Made by a program: the position numbers and the translations under genes | The notes under the pieces: generated by a model | Databases searched by the model: none | Told to the model about the DNA's origin: nothing | What the model saw: the letters and a program-made list of their open reading frames with translations, nothing else | Shown: positions 16,232 to 62,736 of the stretch, piece by piece | Layout: every line of letters starts with the position of its first letter | Numbering within the stretch: the first letter of the stretch is position 1 | NCBI RefSeq assembly: GCF_033842475.1 | Contig: NZ_JAWXYB010000018.1 | Coordinates: forward strand, 1,905,501-1,969,500 | Source: Acidiphilium acidophilum | GTDB lineage: Bacteria; Pseudomonadota; Alphaproteobacteria; Acetobacterales; Acetobacteraceae | Length of the DNA stretch: 64,000 nt | Direction: 5' to 3'

Positions 16232-16261
16232 AAAAACCCCGGCCCGCATAACGGACCGGGG
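16232..16261 (-). terminator. Intrinsic terminator of the Tsd operon
   Basis: On the minus strand a GC-rich hairpin (16237-16261, ten-base arms with one mismatch, loop TTATG) is followed directly by five U residues (A-run 16232-16236 on the plus strand). It lies 8 bases after the stop of the binding-protein gene. This is the clearest Rho-independent terminator in the window. Confidence 0.8.
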
Positions 16262-16269
16262 GTCGAGGA

Positions 16270-17280
16270 TCACTTCTTGTAGGGTTTGAACCCGTAATGC
16301 TCGAAAATCTTCAACGCCGCAGGCGTCTGCACAAAGGACAACCAGGCTTTCGCGGCAGCCGGATGCGCCGCATCCTTCACCATCGCCCCGCCATAGATCG
16401 CGGTGGTGTTGTATTTCGCCGGCAGATCGATGTTGCTGATCGGATGGCCGATCTGCTCCTGAAAAATCGCCTCCGATTTCCAGGTCACCCCGGCATCCGC
16501 CAACCCCTGCATCAGGAACAGCGGCGTCTGGCGATGATGGATATGGGTCAGGATCGTCGAACCATCCTTCACCCCGGTCTCATAGACCTTCTGCTCCAGC
16601 GCCTTGCCCCCCGCCTTCACGAGGCTGGCCTCGATCTGCCGGGCAATTCCCTCGAAGGCCGGGTTCGGCATCACCAGCTTCACGCCGGGTTTACCGAAAT
16701 CCTTGAGCCCGGTGATATGCCCCGGATTGCCCTTCGGAATCATGATCGTGAGGTTGTTGGTCGCATAAGCGACCGGCGGCCCCACCAGCATCCCGTCCGA
16801 AATCAGCGACTTCACCTTTTTCAACCCGGCCAGAAACGCATCCGGCTTGGCGGTGAAGCTCATATTACCGACGGTGAAAATCCCGCCCGCCTTCATCGCC
16901 TTGATTTCGAGACCCGGCGGAATCGTCACCACGAACACCCCACCCTTGTATTGGGGATGCTCGGCCTCGAACGTCTTAACCAGCGGCGCCACCGCAAAAT
17001 AGTAATTGCCGCCGATATAGAGGATCAGTTTCGGGTGATCGATATCGCCATGAAAATCGGCCATGTCGTCCACTTCCGGCACGGTGAACAAAAATCCCTT
17101 GTTCACCGTGTCGTTGTTCGCCCCGCCCTGCCAGGGCGGAAACATGTCGCCCTTGTATTTCGGTGCCTCGACCTTGCCGTTCCACCCGGTATCCGCCGCA
17201 TGGGCGATGGCCAGCCCCGCCACCGCGAGGCATGCCGCCGATACCACCGCCGCCAACCGCAGCTTCATTCGCGTCTTCAT
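16270..17280 (-). CDS. Orphan periplasmic substrate-binding protein in Tsd operon
   Basis: 336-residue exported protein of the type II periplasmic binding fold (molybdate/sulfate-binding-like). ATG 17280 is selected because GGGAG lies six bases upstream, and the ATG at 17286 overlaps that site. Signal peptide MKTRMKLRLAAVVSAACLAV with cleavage near AHA-AD. Recognisable fold pieces: LILYIGGNYYFAVAPLVKTFE, the GLEIKAMKAGG strand, MIPKGNPG and LVMPNPAFEGIARQIE. No permease or ATPase gene is adjacent. It is the last gene of an operon with two c-type cytochromes and a DsrE-like protein, so it may bind a sulfur oxyanion for them. That role is inference. Confidence 0.82.
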   Translation of the reverse strand: MKTRMKLRLAAVVSAACLAVAGLAIAHAADTGWNGKVEAPKYKGDMFPPWQGGANNDTVNKGFLFTVPEVDDMADFHGDIDHPKLILYIGGNYYFAVAPLVKTFEAEHPQYKGGVFVVTIPPGLEIKAMKAGGIFTVGNMSFTAKPDAFLAGLKKVKSLISDGMLVGPPVAYATNNLTIMIPKGNPGHITGLKDFGKPGVKLVMPNPAFEGIARQIEASLVKAGGKALEQKVYETGVKDGSTILTHIHHRQTPLFLMQGLADAGVTWKSEAIFQEQIGHPISNIDLPAKYNTTAIYGGAMVKDAAHPAAAKAWLSFVQTPAALKIFEHYGFKPYKK

Positions 17281-17314
17281 AGTCATCTCCCTGTTCAGTT
17301 CCGGATCGCGACTA

Positions 17315-18130
17315 TTATTTCGCGTATTGATAACCCGCGAGTTGAAACTGCGGAATCGTCCCCACCACGCCCGGTGTCAGCACCGCGCCGGGGATCAGAT
17401 GGTTGGTGAATTCCGCCGCCATCGCCGGATGCGAAAGCTTGTCGGGATTGATCCCCTTTTTCAAAATCCCCATCGTGAGTTCCCACACCTCGTTATGACA
17501 GGCGCAGAACACTGCCCCGCGCTTCTGCAGCACGACGATCGAGTTATCGAGCGGCGAGAACACGCCCTTCGGATTATTATAATCTGCGGCACTCGCCTTC
17601 GACGCCGCCGGCACATCCATCCAGGTGTTGGACTTGACCTTGCCGCCGGTAAACTTGGTCAGATACTTGTCCCAGATATACTTGTCGTAAAGCGCGAGAT
17701 GAGCAGTACCATGAGTCGCCGAAACTGCGATGAAATCCGGATGCTTCCACGACCAGATCTGCGCGTTCATCGAGTTGCGCATCAGGTTGAGCCAGGGGCT
17801 GTCCAGCGCGGTATTGTCCCACACCTGCTTGGGTCCGCCCGAATAGGCGAACAACAGATGCAGCGCCTCGCTGTCATACTGATCGGCACTGGTCAGGATC
17901 ATCGGCACCGATTTGAAATCCCGCCGGCGCGGTGCCTTGGCCAGCGCCGCCGTGAGCGCCTTCAGCTTGGTCGCATGCGGCGGAATGAACTCATCCCCCA
18001 TCGTCGCCGCCTCCGCGACTCCGATCGGCGATAACGCCGCCCCGAGCGCCGCGATCCCCAGCCCCGCCGCCGGCATCGCCAGCGTGGAACGACGGCTGAA
18101 ACCGCGTTGGTCGTCGTTCTGTTCAGTCAT
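17315..18130 (-). CDS. Tat-exported DsrE-like protein
   Basis: 271 residues with a twin-arginine signal (SRRSTLAM, Arg13-Arg14) and a long hydrophobic segment ending near VAEAA, so it is exported folded. The mature part starts with a strand VPMILTSAD and ends LTPGVVGTIPQFQLAGYQYAK, the pattern of DsrE/DsrF-superfamily proteins, where the end usually reads like a PSGVAEI helix. It has only two cysteines, C209 and C211, in VFCACHNE. DsrE relatives carry persulfides on cysteine. Downstream gap 34 bp to the binding protein, upstream gap 56 bp to the TsdA-like gene. Family call is moderate because similarity is to the ends of the fold. Confidence 0.7.
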   Translation of the reverse strand: MTEQNDDQRGFSRRSTLAMPAAGLGIAALGAALSPIGVAEAATMGDEFIPPHATKLKALTAALAKAPRRRDFKSVPMILTSADQYDSEALHLLFAYSGGPKQVWDNTALDSPWLNLMRNSMNAQIWSWKHPDFIAVSATHGTAHLALYDKYIWDKYLTKFTGGKVKSNTWMDVPAASKASAADYNNPKGVFSPLDNSIVVLQKRGAVFCACHNEVWELTMGILKKGINPDKLSHPAMAAEFTNHLIPGAVLTPGVVGTIPQFQLAGYQYAK

Positions 18131-18186
18131 GGTGGTCCCCCCTGTAATGGCGCAGCCAGCCCCATGCCGGCCTGCGGTCGTAAAAT

Positions 18187-19065
18187 CTACTTCTGTGCCC
18201 CGAGCACGTGGCCATTGACGGTCTTGCCGTACATCGAGAATTTATTGTCGTGGAACTTCTTCCGCGTCTCCGCGACGCTCTTCACAAAGCGCGGGTCCTG
18301 CGGCCGGTTCTGGCTGTCGATATACGTCGCGACATCCCATGCCTGCTGCACGCTCAGCGTCCCCGCCACGCCATAGGGCATATTCGCATGAATGAACTCG
18401 GCGGCATTCTTGATGCTGCCCATCCCCGCGCCCCAGTTGAACGACTTGCTGCCCCACAGCGCCGGAAACACCGTCTGTCCCCGGACATACTGCCCAGACC
18501 CATCGGCCTCGTGGCACAACGAGCAATTCTGCTTATAGACCGCCTCGCCCGCCGCATAGGTCGCCGGCTTGGGTGGTGCCGCCAGCTTCGGATAGCCCCG
18601 CCCGGCAAGCTTCGCCCCGGTCGGCGCCCCCGTCGCCAGGAAATACGAATAGGCTTCAAGCGCCACGATGGTCTGGCTGTCGAGCTTCGGCACCTTGCCG
18701 TTCTCGCTGAACCGGAAGCAGCCCTGCAACCGCATCCCGAAATTATTCACCTTCTTGTTCTTCGCCCGATAGGTCGGATAGGCGGTGTAAGCCGCCCACA
18801 TCGGCGCCGAATCCGCCAGCGCACCGGCGTTGAGGTGGCAATTGCTGCAATTGAGCGCATCGCCGATAATCCCGTGGGCATAGACCGTGGTATGGCGAAA
18901 GATATTCTCGCCAAGCTTCACCTCGGCCCCGAACTTGCCTTTGGGAATCGATGTCAGAGCGGGCGGGTTGAACGCCAGAGGCTTCGCAGCCGGTGTGGCC
19001 GCCAGAGCCGAAGCCGATCCACCGGCAATCACGGCGATGGCCGTGACGATCATTGAGGTCCGCAT
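18187..19065 (-). CDS. tsdA: TsdA-like diheme thiosulfate dehydrogenase
   Basis: 292-residue periplasmic diheme cytochrome c with signal peptide MRTSMIVTAIAVIAGGSASA. Heme 1 site is CSNCH (C73, C76, H77) and heme 2 is CSLCH (C181, C184, H185). Between them QGCFRFSENGK places C116 where TsdA has the cysteine axial ligand of the active heme (family pattern GCFxRSMNG). TsdA oxidises thiosulfate to tetrathionate or the reverse. ATG 19065 overlaps the stop of the upstream cytochrome gene (TGATG), with GGGAGGT upstream; a GTG at 19068 is the alternative. Assignment rests on motifs, so distant SoxA-like alternatives remain possible. Confidence 0.75.
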   Translation of the reverse strand: MRTSMIVTAIAVIAGGSASALAATPAAKPLAFNPPALTSIPKGKFGAEVKLGENIFRHTTVYAHGIIGDALNCSNCHLNAGALADSAPMWAAYTAYPTYRAKNKKVNNFGMRLQGCFRFSENGKVPKLDSQTIVALEAYSYFLATGAPTGAKLAGRGYPKLAAPPKPATYAAGEAVYKQNCSLCHEADGSGQYVRGQTVFPALWGSKSFNWGAGMGSIKNAAEFIHANMPYGVAGTLSVQQAWDVATYIDSQNRPQDPRFVKSVAETRKKFHDNKFSMYGKTVNGHVLGAQK

Positions 19066-19730
19066 CACTTTTTACCTCCCTTCGCGTCACCGGGCTTGGG
19101 CAGATGCGTCGGATTGGCCGACAGGCTGGCGTAGTACCCGGCCACGGCCTGAACCTGCGCCGCACTCAACTTGCTCGCGACATTCGACATCAGATGCAGC
19201 GGATCGTTCTTGCGGGTCCCTTTCTGCCAGGCGATCAACTGATCCGCGAGGTAGGCCTTGGGCTGCCCGGCCAGACGCGGAAATTCCGCCCCCACGCCGA
19301 TCCCATACGGCCCATGGCACGAATCGCACGAGGGCAGGCCGGTGGTCTTGTTGCCCCAATCCCCGTTCATCGCGATATCCGCCCCCAACCCGGTCGGCAG
19401 CGGCTGCGGTTCAGGCTTCGCCGGCACCTTCAAACCCGCGTAATACGCCCCGATCGCCTTGCGTTGCGCGGCATCCAGCGGAATCGCCATGCTCTTCATG
19501 ATGGCGTTGACCCTTGTCCCGTGCTTGAAGCTGTAAAGCTGCTGCTCGATATAGGCCGCACTGAGCCCCGCGAGCGCCGGATATTGCGCCCCCACATCCC
19601 CCAGCCCCGCCGCGCCATGGCATGCGGCACACGAAGCGATCTGCGGGGGTACCGCTGCCGATCCCGCCGAAATTGCGGTCATCGAAACAACGGCACCCGC
19701 CGCGACTACTCTGATCAGCGCTCGACTCAT
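19065..19730 (-). CDS. Diheme cytochrome c4-type protein, probable TsdB partner
   Basis: 221-residue exported cytochrome with two heme sites, CAACH (C34, C37, H38) and CDSCH (C134, C137, H138). Each is followed by a class I cytochrome pattern with YPALAG and FPRLAG and later Met ligand candidates. ATG 19730 opens a signal peptide (MSRALIRVVAAGAVVSMTAI) and is preferred over a longer upstream start. First gene of the operon; it ends overlapping the TsdA-like gene. In other bacteria TsdB is a diheme electron acceptor encoded next to TsdA, which is the likely role here: passing electrons to the terminal oxidase or the photosynthetic chain. Confidence 0.85.
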   Translation of the reverse strand: MSRALIRVVAAGAVVSMTAISAGSAAVPPQIASCAACHGAAGLGDVGAQYPALAGLSAAYIEQQLYSFKHGTRVNAIMKSMAIPLDAAQRKAIGAYYAGLKVPAKPEPQPLPTGLGADIAMNGDWGNKTTGLPSCDSCHGPYGIGVGAEFPRLAGQPKAYLADQLIAWQKGTRKNDPLHLMSNVASKLSAAQVQAVAGYYASLSANPTHLPKPGDAKGGKK

Positions 19731-19786
19731 GTCAGAATTTCCCCCACCTCGCGCGACCACGGCGCGGTTATGACCGATCTACCCGA

Positions 19787-19814
19787 TTTGATCATCCAGC
19801 ATGCAGCGATCAAA
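19787..19814. promoter_or_regulatory. Inverted repeat upstream of the Tsd operon
   Basis: TTTGATC (19787-19793) and GATCAAA (19808-19814) form 7-bp arms around a 14-base spacer containing GCATGC. It lies about 57-84 bp upstream of the TsdB-like start, the right place for an operator. The cognate regulator is not identifiable in this window. Confidence 0.3.
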
Positions 19815-19866
19815 CCAATCTGCCGGGTGGATCAATTCTAACGAATGAATGTGACCGTCGCCGCCG

Positions 19867-20781
19867 TCAATCCCACGGCGCAGGATCGAGCGCATCCAGC
19901 GGGATCTTGAGATAGCGTTTGCCATTCGATTCGGGCGGCGGCAGGTGGCCGCCCCGGATGTTCACCTGGAGCGAATGCAGGATCAGCTTCGGCATCGGCA
20001 ATGTCGCATCGCGCTCCTCGCGCTTGGCAACGAACGCCGCCTCCTCGAACGGATGGAGGTGCTCATTGTCGGCACGCTGCTCCGCAACCGTGCTTTCCCA
20101 GGCCGGACCACGGGTTTCGGGCGGATAGTCATGCCCGACAAAAATCCGGGTCGCGTCCGGCAGCGCCATGATCGCCTCGATGCTGTGCCACAAGGCACGC
20201 GCATCGCCACCCGGAAAATCGGCCCTCGCGGTGCCGATATCGGGATGGAAAAGCGTGTCGTGCACAAAAGCGGCATCGCCGATCACGTAGGTGATAGAGC
20301 ATAAAGTGTGGCCCGGGGAGAACATCACCGAGGCATCAAGCGACCCGATCTTGAAGGTCTCGCCCGCCTCGAACAGATGATCCCACTGCGAACCATCGGT
20401 CGGGAAATCATCCGGCAGATTGTACAGCGCCTTCCATAGACGCTGCACCTTGACCACACCGGCCCCGATCGCGGTCGGTACCCCGGTTTTCGCGTTGAGA
20501 TATCCTGCCGCCGAGAAATGATCGGCATGGGGATGGGTATCGAGAATCCATTCGAGGGTCAGGCCTTCGTGCTCGATATAGGCCAGAAGCTCATCAGCCG
20601 ACTCGGTCGAGGTCGCGCCCGATTTTTCGTCGAAATCATGGACCGGGTCGATGATCGCGCAGCGCTTCGTCACCGGATCGCTGACGACATACTGAACGCT
20701 GAACGTCCGTTTCTCGAAAAAACCCGCAACCACGGGGCGCGTGGTCGCGGATGGTGAGGTCATCATCGTGTCAGGCGGCAT
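19867..20781 (-). CDS. Persulfide dioxygenase / MBL-fold hydrolase (Blh/ETHE1-like)
   Basis: 304-residue metallo-beta-lactamase-fold protein with the metal motif THPHADH (H83, H85, D87, H88), a later SPGHTLCS histidine and the GHDYPPE segment that typify ETHE1/Blh enzymes. These oxidise glutathione persulfide to sulfite. The first ATG (20781) overlaps the end of the SQR gene by 11 bases; ATG 20766 is the alternative. Pairing with SQR on one transcript is the arrangement of sulfide-detoxification operons controlled by BigR-type repressors. Its product sulfite could be exported by the nearby TauE-family protein. Confidence 0.87.
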   Translation of the reverse strand: MPPDTMMTSPSATTRPVVAGFFEKRTFSVQYVVSDPVTKRCAIIDPVHDFDEKSGATSTESADELLAYIEHEGLTLEWILDTHPHADHFSAAGYLNAKTGVPTAIGAGVVKVQRLWKALYNLPDDFPTDGSQWDHLFEAGETFKIGSLDASVMFSPGHTLCSITYVIGDAAFVHDTLFHPDIGTARADFPGGDARALWHSIEAIMALPDATRIFVGHDYPPETRGPAWESTVAEQRADNEHLHPFEEAAFVAKREERDATLPMPKLILHSLQVNIRGGHLPPPESNGKRYLKIPLDALDPAPWD

Positions 20782-22051
20782 CAGCGAACTGCTTTTCCTT
20801 ATGTCCGATATCGAGGTCGATCCCCTTGAGCATCACGCTCCAGTAGAGAAAAGGTAGGAACTTGGTCTTCAACAACCAAGAGGAATAACGCGGCACCCGG
20901 GGATCGAGCGGGAAGCTCGGCGTCACCTTGCCACCATAGGTGAATTCCGCCAGCACGATCTTGCCGTAATCGGTGGTGAGCGGGCAGGACCCGTAGCCAT
21001 CGTAGGAGGCGGTGCCGGTATTCGAATTCATTGCCGCAACCAGGTTTTTCACCACCACCGGCGCCTGCATCCGCAATGCCGCGACCGTCTTGCTGTTGGG
21101 CGAACTGGCAGCATCCCCGAGCGAGAAGATATTCCTGTATTTGACATGCTGCATCGTGTGCTGATCGACATCGACGAATCCCGCCGCGTTCGAGATCGGG
21201 CTGCCTTTGAGGAAATCAGGCGCGCTCTGGGGCGGCGTCACGTGGATCATGTCGAAATCGCGCACCACTTCGGTCGTGCTGTCATCGGCATTGGTGACGA
21301 TGAACGTGGCTTTCTTCGCCGGCCCGTCGATCGATTTCAGCGTGGTCCTGAGGTTCACCTCGATATTGTGCCGCTTCATCGCCGCCTTCAGCGATGGCAC
21401 GAAAGGTGCCACCCCGAACAGGCTCGGCAGCGCCGTACAGAAAGCGATATCCGCCGCGCCGCGCTTGCCGGTACGGCGCAGATGATCGGCGGCGAGATAG
21501 GCGATTTTCTGCGGCGCACCCGGGCATTTGATCGGCATTGGCGGCTGGGTGAAGATCATTTTGCCGCCTTGGAACGACTGGATGCACTCCCAGGTATAGG
21601 CCGCGAGATCACCGCGATAGTTGCTGCACACGCCGTTCTTGCCGATGGTTTCCTTCAGCCCCTCGATCTTGCCCCAATCGAGCTGCAGCCCGGGGCAGAC
21701 GATGAGATAGCGGTAGCCGAGCGTCGTGCCGTCGGCGAGTTCGACGATATTCTGCTCGGGATGAAACGCCGACGCCGCCTTCTTGATCCATTCCACGCCA
21801 TTGGGAATGAGCGAGGCTTCGGGCTTGACTGTCTGTTCGAGCGAGAACACCCCCGCGCCCACCAGGGTCCAGCCGGGCTGGTAGGCGTGGGTATCGGCCG
21901 GATCGACGATCGCGATCGAGCCTTTGACCTTGCTGCGCAACATCGCGGCGACAGTGATGCCCGCCGCGCCACCACCGATGATCAGGGTATCCAGTTGTCG
22001 CCCGACTGTCAGGGTGGGCGCGGGTGAAACGGATTGCGTGTGATCAAGCAT
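20771..22051 (-). CDS. sqr: Sulfide:quinone oxidoreductase, type II-like
   Basis: 426-residue membrane-associated flavoprotein. N-terminal FAD motif GGGAAG (residues 26-31) in DTLIIGGGAAGITVAAMLR, then the redox cysteines: Cys142 in GVCSNY, Cys176 in IKCPGAPQKI and Cys356 in GYGSCPLTT. NIFSLGDAASSPNSKT is the second FAD segment, and a C-terminal amphipathic region (FLPFLYWSVMLKG) suits membrane attachment. The KCPGAPQK block is typical of type II SQRs. It oxidises sulfide, feeding electrons to quinone and sulfane sulfur to an acceptor, and is followed by the persulfide dioxygenase gene. First gene of its transcript; the upstream 668-bp gap holds several palindromes. Confidence 0.9.
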   Translation of the reverse strand: MLDHTQSVSPAPTLTVGRQLDTLIIGGGAAGITVAAMLRSKVKGSIAIVDPADTHAYQPGWTLVGAGVFSLEQTVKPEASLIPNGVEWIKKAASAFHPEQNIVELADGTTLGYRYLIVCPGLQLDWGKIEGLKETIGKNGVCSNYRGDLAAYTWECIQSFQGGKMIFTQPPMPIKCPGAPQKIAYLAADHLRRTGKRGAADIAFCTALPSLFGVAPFVPSLKAAMKRHNIEVNLRTTLKSIDGPAKKATFIVTNADDSTTEVVRDFDMIHVTPPQSAPDFLKGSPISNAAGFVDVDQHTMQHVKYRNIFSLGDAASSPNSKTVAALRMQAPVVVKNLVAAMNSNTGTASYDGYGSCPLTTDYGKIVLAEFTYGGKVTPSFPLDPRVPRYSSWLLKTKFLPFLYWSVMLKGIDLDIGHKEKQFADAA

Positions 22052-22380
22052 GGTGGAATTCCCTCATAGAAAATTACTGGTACCCGCTGACCGGGTGCCG
22101 AACTGATTTACCCTCTGTCACGCCCGGTTGCGACCGATATGGTCATTGCAACCGGCATTGCACAAGCAGGTGGACCACAGCGTTGCAAAAAATCATATCT
22201 ATGTCTAGCTTAAATATGTAACTTATGTGCAATATCACCGCCCGACCGATATGCGAGCCATCCACGCGGCTCGACGGCTCGGCTACAAACTTGCAAGGGG
22301 AGCGAAACGATCCATCGGACCACGCCTTCGTCAGACGGCCCCGCAGCCGGGATGAGGCCTGAAATCCAGGACAGCGTCAC

Positions 22381-22397
22381 GAATATGTGATATATTC
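22381..22397. promoter_or_regulatory. AT-rich palindrome, candidate sulfide-sensor operator
   Basis: GAATAT GTGAT ATATTC, perfect 6-bp arms, followed by a further AT-rich block (GATAAATATATTTCG). Sulfide-responsive ArsR-family repressors (BigR/SqrR) bind AT-rich ATTC/GAAT-type dyads, and this one lies between SQR-PDO and TauE. It is 330 bp from either start, so a promoter must be closer or the site must act from afar. Low certainty. Confidence 0.3.
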
Positions 22398-22533
22398 CTC
22401 TTGATAAATATATTTCGATCCGCCACAAACCGTTTCAAATCGGCGTTCAACAGGGTGTGATTTTCTCTGAATTGATCGCCATCGTCAGGGAGTTCGTCAC
22501 GATGCCTCACAGAGCAACATTCCCCTTTGGAGC

Positions 22534-22554
22534 GATAGTGAGAATTTCACTATC
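22534..22554 (+). promoter_or_regulatory. 21-base inverted repeat GATAGTGA-N5-TCACTATC
   Basis: Perfect 8-bp arms with spacer GAATT, immediately followed by TTTTG on the plus strand. It can be read either as an operator about 170 bp upstream of TauE or as a weak intrinsic terminator of an unseen short plus-strand transcript. No gene lies just upstream on that strand, favouring an operator. Confidence 0.4.
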
Positions 22555-22719
22555 TTTTGACAAAATCGTGATCTGAGCAGGCTTCCGCAGGGAGGTGAAA
22601 GCTCATATGGGCGAGCCTCACTAAAACGCGCGGTAAACTCATGCCGAGGCTTCGATAGCGCTTACAATTCGCTTACTTTTACTGAATTCAATCTGTCCGT
22701 CCGAAGTGGAATCCAACTC

Positions 22720-23514
22720 ATGTTGCAAATTATTCTCGCGGTTATTTCCGGTGGGGCCGTGGGGTTCACCCTCGGCCTGATCGGCGGCGGCGGCTCGATC
22801 CTGGCGACACCACTGATGCTCTATGTCGTCGGCCTCAAGCCGCACGAGGCGATCGGCACCGGTGCCCTTGCGGTCTCGGCCAATGCCTTCGTCAATTTCG
22901 CCGGCCATGCCCGGAAGGGTAACGTCCGCTGGAAGTCCGCGATCATCTTCGCGATTCTCGGCATTCTCGGGGCGATCGGCGGTTCCACGCTCGGCAAGGC
23001 GTTCGACGGCAAGAAACTCCTGTTCCTCTTCGCGATCCTGATGATCATCGTCGGCGTCCTGATGCTGCGCCGCAAGCCGCCACCACAGGGCGTCGCGGGC
23101 GGGGCTCAAACCGAAACGCTCGATGTCGCCACTGCGATCAAGGTCTGCATCGCGGCCCTCATCGTCGGCGCGCTGTCAGGATTTTTCGGGATCGGCGGCG
23201 GCTTCCTGATCGTGCCGGGCCTGCTGTTCTCGACCGGGATGCCGATGATCTTCGCGATCGGCTCCTCGCTGCTGTCGGTCGGCACGTTCGGCCTGACCAC
23301 CGCCGTAAACTATGCCACGTCGGGACTGGTGGATTGGGGTGTGGCGGTTGAATTCATCCTCGGCGGCGTTGCGGGCGGTGTCCTGGGCACCCTGCTCGCG
23401 GTCGGCCTCGCCTCGAAGCGGGCGGCGCTCAATCGGATTTTTGCCGGTCTGGTCTTCGTCGTCGCGATCTACATGCTCTACAAAAACGCGGCCTCGTTCG
23501 GCATCCATCTCTGA
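22720..23514 (+). CDS. TauE/SafE-family sulfite/anion exporter
   Basis: 264-residue inner-membrane protein with about eight transmembrane helices in two repeats. Each repeat shows the family signature: FTLGLIGGGGSILATPLMLY near residue 16 and LSGFFGIGGGFLIVPGLLF near residue 155. The charged loop RRKPPPQGVAGGAQ separates the halves. Family members move sulfite, sulfoacetate and other organosulfur anions. Position next to SQR-PDO, which produces sulfite, suggests sulfite export. Substrate is inferred. Confidence 0.88.
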   Translation: MLQIILAVISGGAVGFTLGLIGGGGSILATPLMLYVVGLKPHEAIGTGALAVSANAFVNFAGHARKGNVRWKSAIIFAILGILGAIGGSTLGKAFDGKKLLFLFAILMIIVGVLMLRRKPPPQGVAGGAQTETLDVATAIKVCIAALIVGALSGFFGIGGGFLIVPGLLFSTGMPMIFAIGSSLLSVGTFGLTTAVNYATSGLVDWGVAVEFILGGVAGGVLGTLLAVGLASKRAALNRIFAGLVFVVAIYMLYKNAASFGIHL

Positions 23515-29503: not shown

Positions 29504-29535
29504 GATCGGCCTGCGCCATCGAGGGCTGGCCGATC
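29504..29535. terminator. Weak bidirectional hairpin between convergent genes
   Basis: GATCGGCC (29504-29511) can pair with GGCCGATC (29528-29535), 8 bp with a 16-base loop. It lies between the UdgX gene end and the dehydratase stop and overlaps that stop. No T-run. Confidence 0.3.
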
Positions 29536-31330
29536 AGTGATTATCCCGAGGCACGCCGAACCGTTCGGCGATCCTCTGGTAGCCCACCGCGTGTTCCATC
29601 ACCGCGCCGGTTTCGAGCTGGCCGGTGAAGCGGCGATGGATTTCCTGCCACGGCGTCTGGTTCAGCAGTTCCGGCAGTTCCATCGCCTCGCGGCGGCGGG
29701 TCAGTTCGGCCTCGTCGATCAGGATGTTCGCGGTGCGGGTTTTCAGATCGACCCTGATCCGGTCACCGGTCCGCAGCAGCAGCAGCCCGCCGCCGACCGC
29801 GGATTCCGGGCTGGCATTGAGGATCGAAGGGCTGCCGGAGGTGCCGGATTGCCGCCCGTCGCCGATGCAGGGGAGCTGGTTGATCCCTTGTTTCACCAAC
29901 GCATCCGGCGGGAGCATGTTCACCACCTCCGCCGAGCCGGGATAGCCGATCGGCCCGCAATTGCGGATCACCAGAATGCAGTCGGCATCGATCTTCAGGT
30001 CGGCATCGTTGATCCGGTGGTGGTAATCCTCCGGCCCCTCGAACACGATGGCGCGGCCCTCGAACGCATCGTGATCGCCGGGCTTGCGCATGAAGCGGTC
30101 GCGGAATTCGGGGGAGATCACCGAGGTTTTCATGATCGCGCTGTGGAACAGATTGCCGGTGAGCACGGCAAACCCCGCATGTTCATGCAGGGGCGTTTCG
30201 TAATCGGTGATCATTTCGGGATCGATGCTGCGCTTGCCGCGGTTTTCCTCGCCCATGGTGCGGCCGGAAACCGTCAGCGCGGACTCGCGGATCTTGCCGT
30301 GGCGCATGAGTTCGCCGATCACGGCGGGCAGGCCGCCCGCACGGTGGAACCGCTCGCCGAGATATTTGCCCGCCGGCATCATGTTGACCAGCAGCGGAAT
30401 ATCGTAGCCGATCGTGTCCCAATCCGCGATGTCGAGCTCGACGCCGATATGCCGCGCAATCGCGATCACATGCGGCGGGCAGTTGGTCGAAGCGCCGATC
30501 GCCGAGGCGCAGACGATGGCGTTTTCGAAGGCCTCGCGCGTCAGGATGTGCGACGGGCGCAGATCCTCGCGCACCATGTCGACGATCCGCTTGCCGGTTT
30601 CATAGGCGATCTGCGCGCGTTCGCGATACGGGCCGGGAATCGCGGCACAGCCGGGCAGCGACATGCCCAGCGCCTCGGCCATCGCGTTCATCGAGCTGGC
30701 GGTGCCCATGGTGTTGCAATGGCCGACGCTGGGGGCCGATCCGGCCACCATGTCGATGAATTTGTCATAGGCGATCTCCCCGGCGGCGAGGCGGCGGCGC
30801 GCCTCCCACACGACGGTGCCGGAGCCGACCAGCTCGCCCTCGAACCAGCCATCGAGCATCGGTCCGCCGGACAGCACGATGGCCGGGATATCGACCGTGG
30901 CCGCCCCCATGATCATGGCCGGGGTGGTCTTGTCGCAGCCGGTGGTGAGCACCACGCCATCGAGCGGGTAACCGAACAGCACCTCGACCAGACCGAGATA
31001 GCTCAGGTTGCGGTCGAGCGCCGCGGTCGGGCGCTTGCCGGTTTCCTGGATCGGATGGACCGGAAACTCGATCGGCACGCCGCCATTGGCGCGAATCCCG
31101 TCAGCCACGCGTTTGGCGAGTTCGATGTGATGGCGGTTGCACGGCGAGAGGTCGCTGCCGGTCTGGGCGATGCCGATGATCGGCTTGCCCGATTGCAGTT
31201 CCTCGCGGGTCAGCCCGTAATTGAGGTAGCGCTCCAGATACAGCGCGGTCATGCCCGGATTGCCGGGGTTGTCGAACCATTGAGCGCTTCTCAGGGGGGC
31301 GGGGCCGGGTTTCGTCGGGTCGTTGTTCAT
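29534..31330 (-). CDS. IlvD/Edd-family sugar-acid dehydratase, 2Fe-2S type
   Basis: 598-residue dehydratase. Three cysteines stand where arabinonate/xylonate dehydratases bind a 2Fe-2S cluster: C64 in SPCNRHH, C132 in TTGCDKTTP and C205 in VGHCNTMGT. The true ilvD at 60.9 kb lacks the first cysteine. Adjacent SDR (10 bp upstream) and lactonase genes place it in the non-phosphorylative oxidation of a pentose or deoxyhexose. It would remove water from an aldonate to give the 2-keto-3-deoxy acid. Exact sugar is not readable from sequence. Confidence 0.88.
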
Positions 31331-60879: not shown

Positions 60880-62736
60880 TCACCCCCGACGGCGTTGAAC
60901 CTGACGGACATCGCGCACCGCACCGTTCGCGGCGCTGGTGGTCAACGCCGCATAGGCCTGAAGTGCCGCCGAAACCACGCGATCCCGCCCGACCGGCTGC
61001 CACGCCTCCGCGCCCCGCGCCTCCATCGCAACCCGCCGCTCATCGAGGCGCGCCTGATCGAGTACGACATCGATCCGCCGGTTCGGAATATCGATCGCGA
61101 TGACATCGCCGTCCTCGATCAGCCCGATCGCCCCGCCCTCGGCGGCTTCCGGCGAAATATGCCCGATCGAAAGCCCCGACGTACCCCCGGAGAACCGCCC
61201 GTCGGTGATCAGCGCGCAGGCTTTGCCCAACCCTTTCGATTTCAGATACGATGTCGGATACAGCATCTCCTGCATCCCCGGCCCGCCTTTCGGCCCCTCG
61301 TAGCGGATCACGACCACATCGCCGGCCACGATTTTGTCACCGAGAATCGCCGCCACCGCGTCATCCTGGCTGGCAAAAATCCGCGCCGGCCCCTTGAACA
61401 CCAGATTGGCGGCATCGACCCCGGCGGTCTTCACGATCGCCCCGTCGAGCGCGATATTACCATACAGCACGGCCAGCCCGCCATCCTTGCTGAACGCGTG
61501 GGGCGCATCGCGGATCACACCCTTGACCCGGTCGGTATCGAGCCCCTCGTAGCGGCGGGACTGGCTGAACGCCTGCGTCGTCCGCACGCCCCCCGGTGCC
61601 GCGCTGAACAGCGTCCGCGCCTGTTCGCGCCCGTTCATCACATCCCACAGTTCCACCGCCGCGCCCAAAGTCTTCTCATGCACGGTCGAGCAATCCCGGT
61701 GCAGCAACCCGGCCCGGTCCAGCGCGCCGAGCAACCCCATGATCCCGCCCGCCCGATGGACATCCTCCATATGGACATTCGGCACCGAGGGCGAAACCTT
61801 GCACAAATTCGGCACCCGGCGCGACAGCCGATCGATGTCCGCCATGGTGAATTCAAGCTCCGCCTCGCGCGCCGCCGCCAGCAGATGCAGCACGGTATTG
61901 GTCGATCCGCCCATGGCGATATCGAGCGACATGGCGTTCTCGAAAGCGTCGAAATTCGCAATCGCGCGCGGCAGGACCGAACCATCCTCCTGCTCGTAAT
62001 ACCGCCGCGCCAGATCCACGATCTGCCACCCGGCCTCAACGAACAGGCGTTTGCGGTCGGAATGGGTCGCCAGCAGCGAGCCGTTGCCCGGCAGCGCCAG
62101 CCCGAGCGCCTCGGTCAGGCAGTTCATCGAATTGGCGGTGAACATCCCCGAGCACGAACCGCAGGTCGGGCACGCCGAGCGTTCCATCACCGCCGCCTGC
62201 TCGTCGGTCTGGGTCGGATCGGCGGCGGCAACCATCGCGGTGATCAGATCGACCGCCTTGGTCGTCCCTTCCGCGACATACTTGCCCGCCTCCATCGGCC
62301 CGCCCGAGACGAAGATCGCCGGAATATTCAGCCGCAGCGCCGCCATCAGCATGCCGGGCGTGATCTTGTCGCAATTGGAAATGCACACCAGCGCATCGGC
62401 GCAATGGGCATTGACCATGTACTCCACCGAATCCGCGATCAACTCGCGCGAGGGCAGCGAATACAGCATCCCGCCATGCCCCATCGCGATCCCGTCATCG
62501 ACCGCGATGGTATTGAATTCCTTGGCGACCCCGCCCGCCGCCTCGATCTCGCGCGCCACCAGCTGCCCCATATCCTTGAGGTGCACATGGCCGGGGACGA
62601 ACTGGGTGAAGGAATTGGCGATCGCGATGATCGGCTTGCCGAAATCCCCATCGCCCATCCCGGTCGCGCGCCAGAGCGCGCGGGCACCGGCCATGTTGCG
62701 GCCATGAGTCGAGGTACGGGAACGATAATGCGGCAT
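60880..62736 (-). CDS. ilvD: Dihydroxy-acid dehydratase (branched-chain amino acid pathway)
   Basis: 618 residues, as in E. coli IlvD. Cluster cysteines C122 in [10 protein letters not shown] and C195 in [11 protein letters not shown] match the E. coli positions, and there is no cysteine at the third site found in the sugar-acid dehydratase earlier in the window, so a 4Fe-4S cluster is expected. [17 protein letters not shown] supplies a Mg ligand. Dehydrates 2,3-dihydroxy-isovalerate and -methylvalerate for valine and isoleucine. Starts ATG 62736. Confidence 0.96.

Follow-up and report, generated by a model that had tools for sequence, protein, structure and literature searches.

The Acidithiobacillus ferrooxidans operon AFE_0041-0046 comprises, in the parts of the literature that treat it, genes for a twin-arginine translocation (Tat) protein, a solute-binding protein (SBP) and DoxDA, and it is listed with the sulfur-induced genes (PMC2754497). 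Within it, AFE_0042-0044 goes by the name of 'thiosulfate-quinone oxidoreductase complex operon', AFE_0043 is marked as higher on sulfur, and AFE_0041 appears under the name C4-dicarboxylate/malic acid transport protein (PMC2754497, PMC6335251). According to the relevant passages of a 2019 review, A. ferrooxidans carries tsd, sbp and doxDA twice within a single cluster, AFE_0042 converts thiosulfate into tetrathionate at acid pH, and the structure and mechanism of this thiosulfate dehydrogenase (TSD) are still to be clarified; neither ubiquinone nor horse cytochrome c takes up electrons from the enzyme (PMC6335251). Here we describe a four-gene cluster from a stretch of 64,000 nucleotides (nt) of Acidiphilium acidophilum (contig NZ_JAWXYB010000018.1, positions 1,905,501 to 1,969,500; hereafter the window), in which tsd and sbp are joined to a pair of cytochrome genes, tsdB and tsdA. 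We tentatively propose that its products form a periplasmic unit that would convert thiosulfate into tetrathionate and would be built from exchangeable modules, a core of TSD and SBP and an outlet of either TsdBA or DoxDA, a reading that falls just short of being probable.

As in AFE_0042-0044, for which the relevant passages name no ATP-binding cassette (ABC) permease, the TSD gene of the window is followed by the gene for the SBP. The two loci differ in the outlet, which is DoxDA there and TsdB-TsdA here, and no match to DoxD was found anywhere in the window's genome (4.16 Mb, 21 contigs). The order tsd-sbp-doxDA with an SBP of the window's family occurs in Acidithiobacillus ferruginosus (L037). 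An earlier sequence-only reading of the window had named no described system of this composition, which holds in part: the combination of tsd, sbp and doxDA has been published for Acidithiobacillus (PMC6335251, PMC2754497) and the TsdB/TsdA pair resembles known TsdBA, while the version with TsdBA was not found in print. tsdA itself has been noted in Acidiphilium, in the relevant passages without this gene context (PMC7677001). An association of the SBP with three enzymes, a fusion of SBP and TsdA and a DsrE fold of TSD were likewise not found in titles and abstract openings of open-licence PMC articles.

The four-gene cluster and its products

The cluster consists of four genes at 19730-16270 on the minus strand, with successive gaps of -4, 56 and 28 nt, and the following features:

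19065 to 19730, minus strand: tsdB-like gene for a c4-type diheme cytochrome c of 221 amino acids (aa), ATG at 19730, CXXCH at residues 34 and 135
18187 to 19068, minus strand: tsdA-like gene for a diheme cytochrome c of 293 aa from the GTG at 19068, CXXCH at residues 74 and 182
18718 to 18720, minus strand: codon of the candidate TsdA-type Cys heme ligand, C116 from the ATG at 19065, C117 from the GTG
17315 to 18130, minus strand: tsd gene for a twin-arginine thiosulfate dehydrogenase of 271 aa with a predicted DsrE/F-like fold, no CXXCH
17498 to 17500, minus strand: codon of C211, the proposed catalytic Cys of TSD, shared by all 18 sequences aligned, that of the window among them
16270 to 17286, minus strand: sbp gene for an orphan periplasmic solute-binding protein (SBP_bac_11) of 338 aa, Sec-type signal judged by eye
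16237 to 16261, minus strand: intrinsic terminator hairpin of 11 pairs, then a T run

The GTG start of the tsdA-like gene overlaps the stop codon of the tsdB-like gene by 4 nt, and the terminator hairpin begins 8 nt past the stop of sbp, the last gene. Its folding z is -2.96, and an equally good fold occurred in 1 of 200 shuffles. Since the scanned region holds 6 terminator-like sites against 4.9 by chance (standard deviation 3.0), i.e. no excess, the evidence for the terminator lies in its position and strength and not in its detection. The single minus-strand unit with short gaps, closed by a strong hairpin at 16261-16237, is as the sequence-only reading had drawn it, and the clustering in relatives for which that reading had asked was also found. 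The identical four-gene order occurs in L032, L132 and L131, and three Acidiphilium records (L032, L034, L035) are among the cluster's nearest relatives. In L131, from a genome of the same genus, the tsd match is split into two overlapping matches in different frames (L131:6804-7647), as if the gene were broken or mis-assembled.

Judged from sequence comparison, the first two genes code for TsdB and TsdA as a split pair. The tsdB-like product matched Pfam Cytochrom_C (E 4.1e-13), and its best match in the PDB was 5lo9, the TsdBA fusion of Marichromatium purpuratum, in the TsdB half (17-189; E 1.7e-31); the tsdA-like product matched Pfam SoxA-TsdA_cyt-c (E 1.1e-7, 32.2 bits against a cut-off of 27), the TsdA half of 5lo9 (E 2.1e-78) and Allochromatium vinosum TsdA 4wqc (E 2.4e-41). 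The former thus aligns to the N-terminal and the latter to the C-terminal half of the fusion. Like the fusion, the cluster pairs a c4-type diheme TsdB with a diheme TsdA; in the window they are encoded by two separate, adjoining and overlapping genes, joined to tsd and sbp. In addition to the two CXXCH motifs, the position of the TsdA-type Cys is kept: C116, which had been picked out from the sequence as a candidate, aligns with two Cys, that in 'IGDCFERS' of A. vinosum TsdA, counted as chain residue 96, and that in 'IQGCFRYS' of 5lo9. At the positions of A. vinosum Lys208-Met209 the window's TsdA has Asn-Met; we take residue 96 and residues 208/209 to be heme ligands. The chain aligned, 4wqc, likewise has Asn at 208, and its PDB title names the K208N mutant.

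The third gene, by its match to NCBIfam NF052225 (E 9e-113, 375.9 bits against a cut-off of 300, model positions 1-259 of 259), is a member of the thiosulfate dehydrogenase family of the type of AFE_0042, which, from the family's name and the literature, appears to be the reference of NF052225. Since gene 2 encodes TsdA, the cluster would hold two unrelated types of tetrathionate-forming enzyme. As to its structure, the best AlphaFold2 model of TSD has a mean predicted local distance difference test score (pLDDT) of 80.2, with values below 50 only in residues 1-49, and a Foldseek search with it gave 410 matches, of which ranks 1, 2, 3 and 10 were structures of the DsrE family or akin to it, the first three being 2pd2 and DsrE 3pnx. 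Alignment of profiles with hhalign gave a probability of 90.2 against a wider DsrE set (A3, eight Pfam DsrE matches plus L122) and of 95.2 against set A5, a value that is flattered because the set was hand-picked from matches already alike; an unrelated SBP alignment gave 0.15. A relation to DsrE at the level of the predicted fold, weak by Foldseek E-value, is thus indicated as the sequence-only reading had it, and the fold call and the call of a thiosulfate dehydrogenase both stand. A single-sequence PDB search returned one designed protein only, over residues 8-40, and was discarded.

C211, which is followed by H212 and N213, sits in the Cys column of the DsrE family in the hhalign alignment. 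It is the second Cys of the CAC motif that the sequence-only reading had named; the first is not conserved, so that the motif is local to the window's protein and was rejected as a catalytic pair. TSD shares its predicted fold, and the Cys at the same strand end, with the DsrE/DsrF family (2pd2, 3pnx, 3mc3; DsrE3A of Metallosphaera), but differs in its twin-arginine signal, its length (271 aa versus 108-160 in those PDB chains), the lack of a Pfam DsrE match and its classification as an oxidoreductase. A second tsd copy is present in the window's genome (L001, C18:2349750-2350523; 409.5 bits), with no SBP, TsdA or TsdB within 1.5 kb and directly downstream of a 461-aa open reading frame (ORF) for which Pfam gave no hit with an E of 0.001 or less.

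The product of the fourth gene has a type II periplasmic binding fold, as judged from its match to Pfam PF13531 (E 7.1e-45) and from a Foldseek comparison of the SBP half of a fused relative that is 63% identical to it. By sequence it is nearest, weakly, to sulfate-binding SubI (6ddn, 3e-9), and no binder of phosphate or tungstate matched it closely. All 21 sequences aligned, that of the window among them, share the residues H250 H251 R252, W269 and E272, and the two His of the His-His-Arg are absent from the aligned sulfate binders. As had been noted from the sequence, the protein comes without a permease: among the 24 BPD_transp_1 matches of the genome, the permease family searched, none lies within about 94 kb, and the nearest one adjoins an SBP_bac_11 protein of its own (1826088 and 1827111). 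A role as a standard importer component was rejected on these grounds. The protein thus shares the fold of SubI, Sbp, ModA and WtpA, from which it differs in lacking a nearby BPD_transp_1 permease, in its invariant His-His-Arg and in the linkage or fusion of its family to redox enzymes.

Partner enzymes of the binding protein in relatives

The gene neighbourhoods were compared in three sets of loci. One was fetched with tsd (the best 80 of 289 relatives kept, 79 loci) and is biased towards tsd; the two fetched with the SBP, from 299 genomes of the family and 398 of the phylum, have no such bias. The family sample yielded 45 places, each scanned with nine query proteins; the place in G096 is represented by record L035, which has the same coordinates. 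Search distances were 1.5 kb for tsd, 6 kb for tsdA and, for DoxDA, 2.5 kb in the tree, 4 kb in the tsd-fetched counts and 6 kb in the exclusion and family counts. In one representative, DoxDA was confirmed by matches to both Pfam DoxD and Pfam DoxA.

In the family, 41 of the 45 SBP places lie near TSD, DoxDA and/or TsdA, 12 of them without TSD: TSD was found in 29, DoxDA without TSD in 9, TsdBA without TSD in 2 and a distant TsdA in 1. The places with TSD also have TsdA plus TsdB (7), TsdA (2) or DoxDA (11), or TSD alone (9). None of the three enzymes is near the remaining 4 of 45, two of which (L122, L157) lie beside a Pfam DsrE gene and two on contigs of 3.3 and 5.2 kb; the L122 locus also has a cytochrome c and L157 a metallo-beta-lactamase fold protein, neither with tsd. 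In the phylum sample, 9 genomes have the SBP, the window's own included, and 5 of the 8 other places are near partner enzymes. In L160 and L162, from genomes of another family, the SBP adjoins a long gene on the same strand.

Seen from the tsd side, 49 of the 69 tsd genes with enough downstream sequence have the SBP gene on their own strand, no more than 1.5 kb away. Among 54 tsd loci with wide flanks, 20 have SBP and TsdA (11 with TsdB), 10 SBP and DoxDA, 7 SBP only, 2 DoxDA only and 2 TsdA only. The arrangement varies: tsdB-tsdA-tsd-sbp is found in an Acidiphilium bin (L032) and in Thiomonas delicata (L043), tsd-sbp directly followed by tsdB-tsdA in Acidocella records L067, L071 and L077, the same with a gap in A. 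rubrum (L035), Lichenibacterium (L083) and Methylobacterium (L102), and an opposite-strand arrangement in L048. Genome G169 has tsd-sbp-doxDA (L123) and sbp-tsdB-tsdA (L124) apart on one contig, each with its own SBP.

DoxDA and TsdA were never found at the same SBP locus. Among 99 distinct loci (105 before identical rows were merged; SBP matches below 200 aa dropped), DoxDA is near 37, TsdA near 35 and both near none, where about 13 joint loci would be expected if the two were independent (hypergeometric 3.9e-10, kinship ignored); with at least 4 kb on either side (n=63) the counts are 22, 27 and 0. On a quick SBP tree, in which 36 of 96 inner branches are open, six label classes of partners need 33 changes versus 55.8 in shuffles, and the starred branches by themselves require no fewer than 9 changes for TSD plus TsdA and no fewer than 6 for TSD plus DoxDA, so that the partners are clustered and yet have been exchanged more than once.

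Furthermore, SBP and TsdA are fused in 6 of the 79 tsd-fetched loci, all of them Planctomycetota bins (ORFs of 608-633 aa); the fusion was checked with Pfam in L103 and L105, and the halves of the protein match TsdA and anion-binding proteins. As the fused proteins form one clade (99*), the fusion probably goes back to one event.

Two further kinds of gene were seen beside tsd. Tetrathionate hydrolases have a beta-propeller fold, and a beta-propeller protein adjoins tsd on the same strand in L033, L040, L042 and L047 (Pfam PQQ_2 in L033, homologous elsewhere). Downstream of tsd-sbp in L072 lies a 731-aa cytochrome fusion (L072:11741-13936) that combines a SoxA-TsdA domain with two stretches of Cytochrom_C, and the same ORF cluster occurs in L090 and L108.

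Possible modes of action

The SBP thus pairs repeatedly with three unrelated thiosulfate enzymes and is fused to one of them, so that the idea of the sequence-only reading, an SBP handling a sulfur oxyanion, gains support at the level of gene context. The pattern suggests that it is a shared helper for several thiosulfate-oxidising enzymes, and, since these have both a substrate (thiosulfate) and a product (tetrathionate) in common, the simplest reading is that it binds one or the other. DoxDA and TsdBA replace each other, as would be expected if they did the same job, which in loci with TSD may be to accept electrons from this enzyme.

Under our proposal, TSD, with a predicted DsrE fold and no heme motif, and the orphan SBP would form the core. 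The SBP would bind thiosulfate (or tetrathionate) and hand it to TSD or TsdA; C211 of TSD would take thiosulfate as Cys-S-thiosulfonate, two electrons would go to the partner, and a second thiosulfate would displace tetrathionate from C211. The outlet would lead through TsdA and TsdB to the cytochrome c pool, and in relatives through DoxDA to quinone instead. The ligand of the SBP, the chemistry at C211, the transfer of electrons from TSD to TsdBA and any complex between the proteins are what we infer. A DsrE homologue is described, in the relevant passages, as forming Cys-S-thiosulfonate when given tetrathionate (PMC4175335).

Several observations weigh against this proposal. In other organisms, tetrathionate is formed by TsdA as well as by TSD, and a transfer of electrons from one to the other is therefore not needed. 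DsrE3A reacted with tetrathionate and not with thiosulfate in the passages concerned (PMC4175335), although loading by tetrathionate fits the need for an oxidant. Only one of the five TSD models is good (mean pLDDT 80.2, 71.5, 69.0, 48.3 and 39.9); the best Foldseek match has E 8.9e-3 with a TM-score of 0.32 by query and 0.75 by target length, none being below E 0.001; Pfam DsrE (PF02635) gave no match to TSD at E up to 1, and a search of the PDB by sequence with the TSD profile found no chain. The model of the SBP-TsdA fusion (predicted TM-score, pTM, 0.52) does not predict the relative placement of the two parts, and a claim on docking was therefore dropped. As to the loci, which are non-independent through shared ancestry and gene transfer, 13 of the 54 wide-flank tsd loci are without any partner in the windows searched, so that the core is not universal, and 20 of the 69 tsd genes with enough downstream sequence lack an SBP within 1.5 kb. 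In the family sample, TSD comes without a nearby outlet of either kind at 9 of 45 SBP places; a SoxB-like gene, named from sequence (Pfam 5_nucleotid_C and Metallophos in the L032 query copy), lies upstream of tsd-sbp in four of them (L143, L152, L153, L155) and the others are on short contigs. In the phylum sample, L160, L162 and L163 have the SBP with none of the three enzymes. Finally, the window's genome has two tsd genes and one SBP.

The main rival, which we regard as somewhat unlikely, is that TSD and TsdBA are independent and partly redundant formers of tetrathionate, differing in pH, affinity or oxygen and co-transcribed for regulation only, each with its own acceptor and with the SBP as a common binder of thiosulfate or tetrathionate. 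TsdA forms tetrathionate alone, as PDB titles also indicate, and no pair is obligatory, as SBP places with TSD and no outlet (9/45), DoxDA without TSD (9/45) and TsdBA without TSD (2/45) all occur. That TSD forms tetrathionate alone is stated in the relevant passages of the review cited above (PMC6335251). Redundancy does not, however, predict the exclusion of DoxDA and TsdA (0/99), and it supplies no acceptor for TSD.

It is improbable that TsdBA serves chiefly to reduce tetrathionate when oxygen is limiting, with TSD as the oxidase and the SBP returning tetrathionate in a reversible couple. TsdA enzymes are reportedly bifunctional, as the title of an article by Kurth of 2016 has it, and the window's Asn-Met in place of Lys208-Met209 of A. 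vinosum would be in line with this reading, as would the term bifunctional used for tsdA in the relevant passages of PMC7677001. However, the neighbourhood gives no sign of anaerobic respiration, and genes resembling a sulfide:quinone oxidoreductase (SQR) and a dioxygenase lie upstream.

More doubtful still is an SBP that serves an ordinary ABC importer of sulfate, thiosulfate or molybdate whose permease is encoded elsewhere. The protein belongs to SBP_bac_11, is structurally close to SubI, ModA and WtpA (via the fused relative), and the genome offers 24 permease matches in the one family searched, BPD_transp_1; against this, the nearest of these has its own SBP_bac_11, the SBP is near thiosulfate oxidoreductases in 41 of 45 places and, in a few relatives, forms one protein with a cytochrome, and its two invariant His are absent from aligned sulfate binders. 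We give least credence to the original view of the DsrE-like protein as a periplasmic acceptor or donor of sulfane sulfur and not a thiosulfate dehydrogenase, since, despite its DsrE-like fold with one invariant Cys and the sulfur or thiosulfonate that DsrE homologues carry in the passages concerned (PMC4175335), gene 3 exceeds the curated NF052225 cut-off and its relative AFE_0042 is reported as the enzyme (PMC6335251).

Neighbouring genes and implications

Two genes on the same strand precede the cluster:

19867 to 20781, minus strand: persulfide dioxygenase/Blh-type metallo-beta-lactamase fold protein (NF040641, E 3.7e-160, 533.4 bits, below the cut-off of 625, aligned over 138-423 of 423)
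20771 to 22051, minus strand: sulfide:quinone oxidoreductase-like flavoprotein (NF049943, SQR type III, E 2e-68, 231.2 bits, below the cut-off of 525)

The dioxygenase-like gene, which the SQR-like gene overlaps, ends 136 nt ahead of tsdB and may be co-transcribed with it. Together with a diverging TauE/SafE exporter gene, the stretch 19867-23514 possibly provides a route from sulfide to thiosulfate beside the cluster, one that is rarely conserved: in 8 of 131 loci, window included, the SBP has SQR or dioxygenase no more than 8 kb away, and in 3 it has both (the 131 being the window plus 79 plus 51, not all with SBP and some duplicates). A place for these genes in the conserved unit was rejected for this reason. 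Elsewhere the window holds two ILVD/EDD dehydratase genes, at 29534-31330 and 60880-62736.

On a wider scale, it might be speculated, with more reserve than for the cluster itself, that the genes belong to a widespread modular machine in which three unrelated enzymes re-use the SBP as the subunit that loads their substrate, and in which TSD, heme-free and of DsrE fold, holds thiosulfate on one Cys and drains its electrons to TsdBA or DoxDA. If this is true, TSD would gain its missing acceptor, the gene pattern pointing to concrete candidates in TsdBA and DoxDA as well as to a catalytic Cys, and a function would be at hand for transporter-like binding proteins that lack an adjoining transporter. 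The turnover of thiosulfate and tetrathionate in which such a machine would take part is relevant to acid mine drainage and bioleaching.

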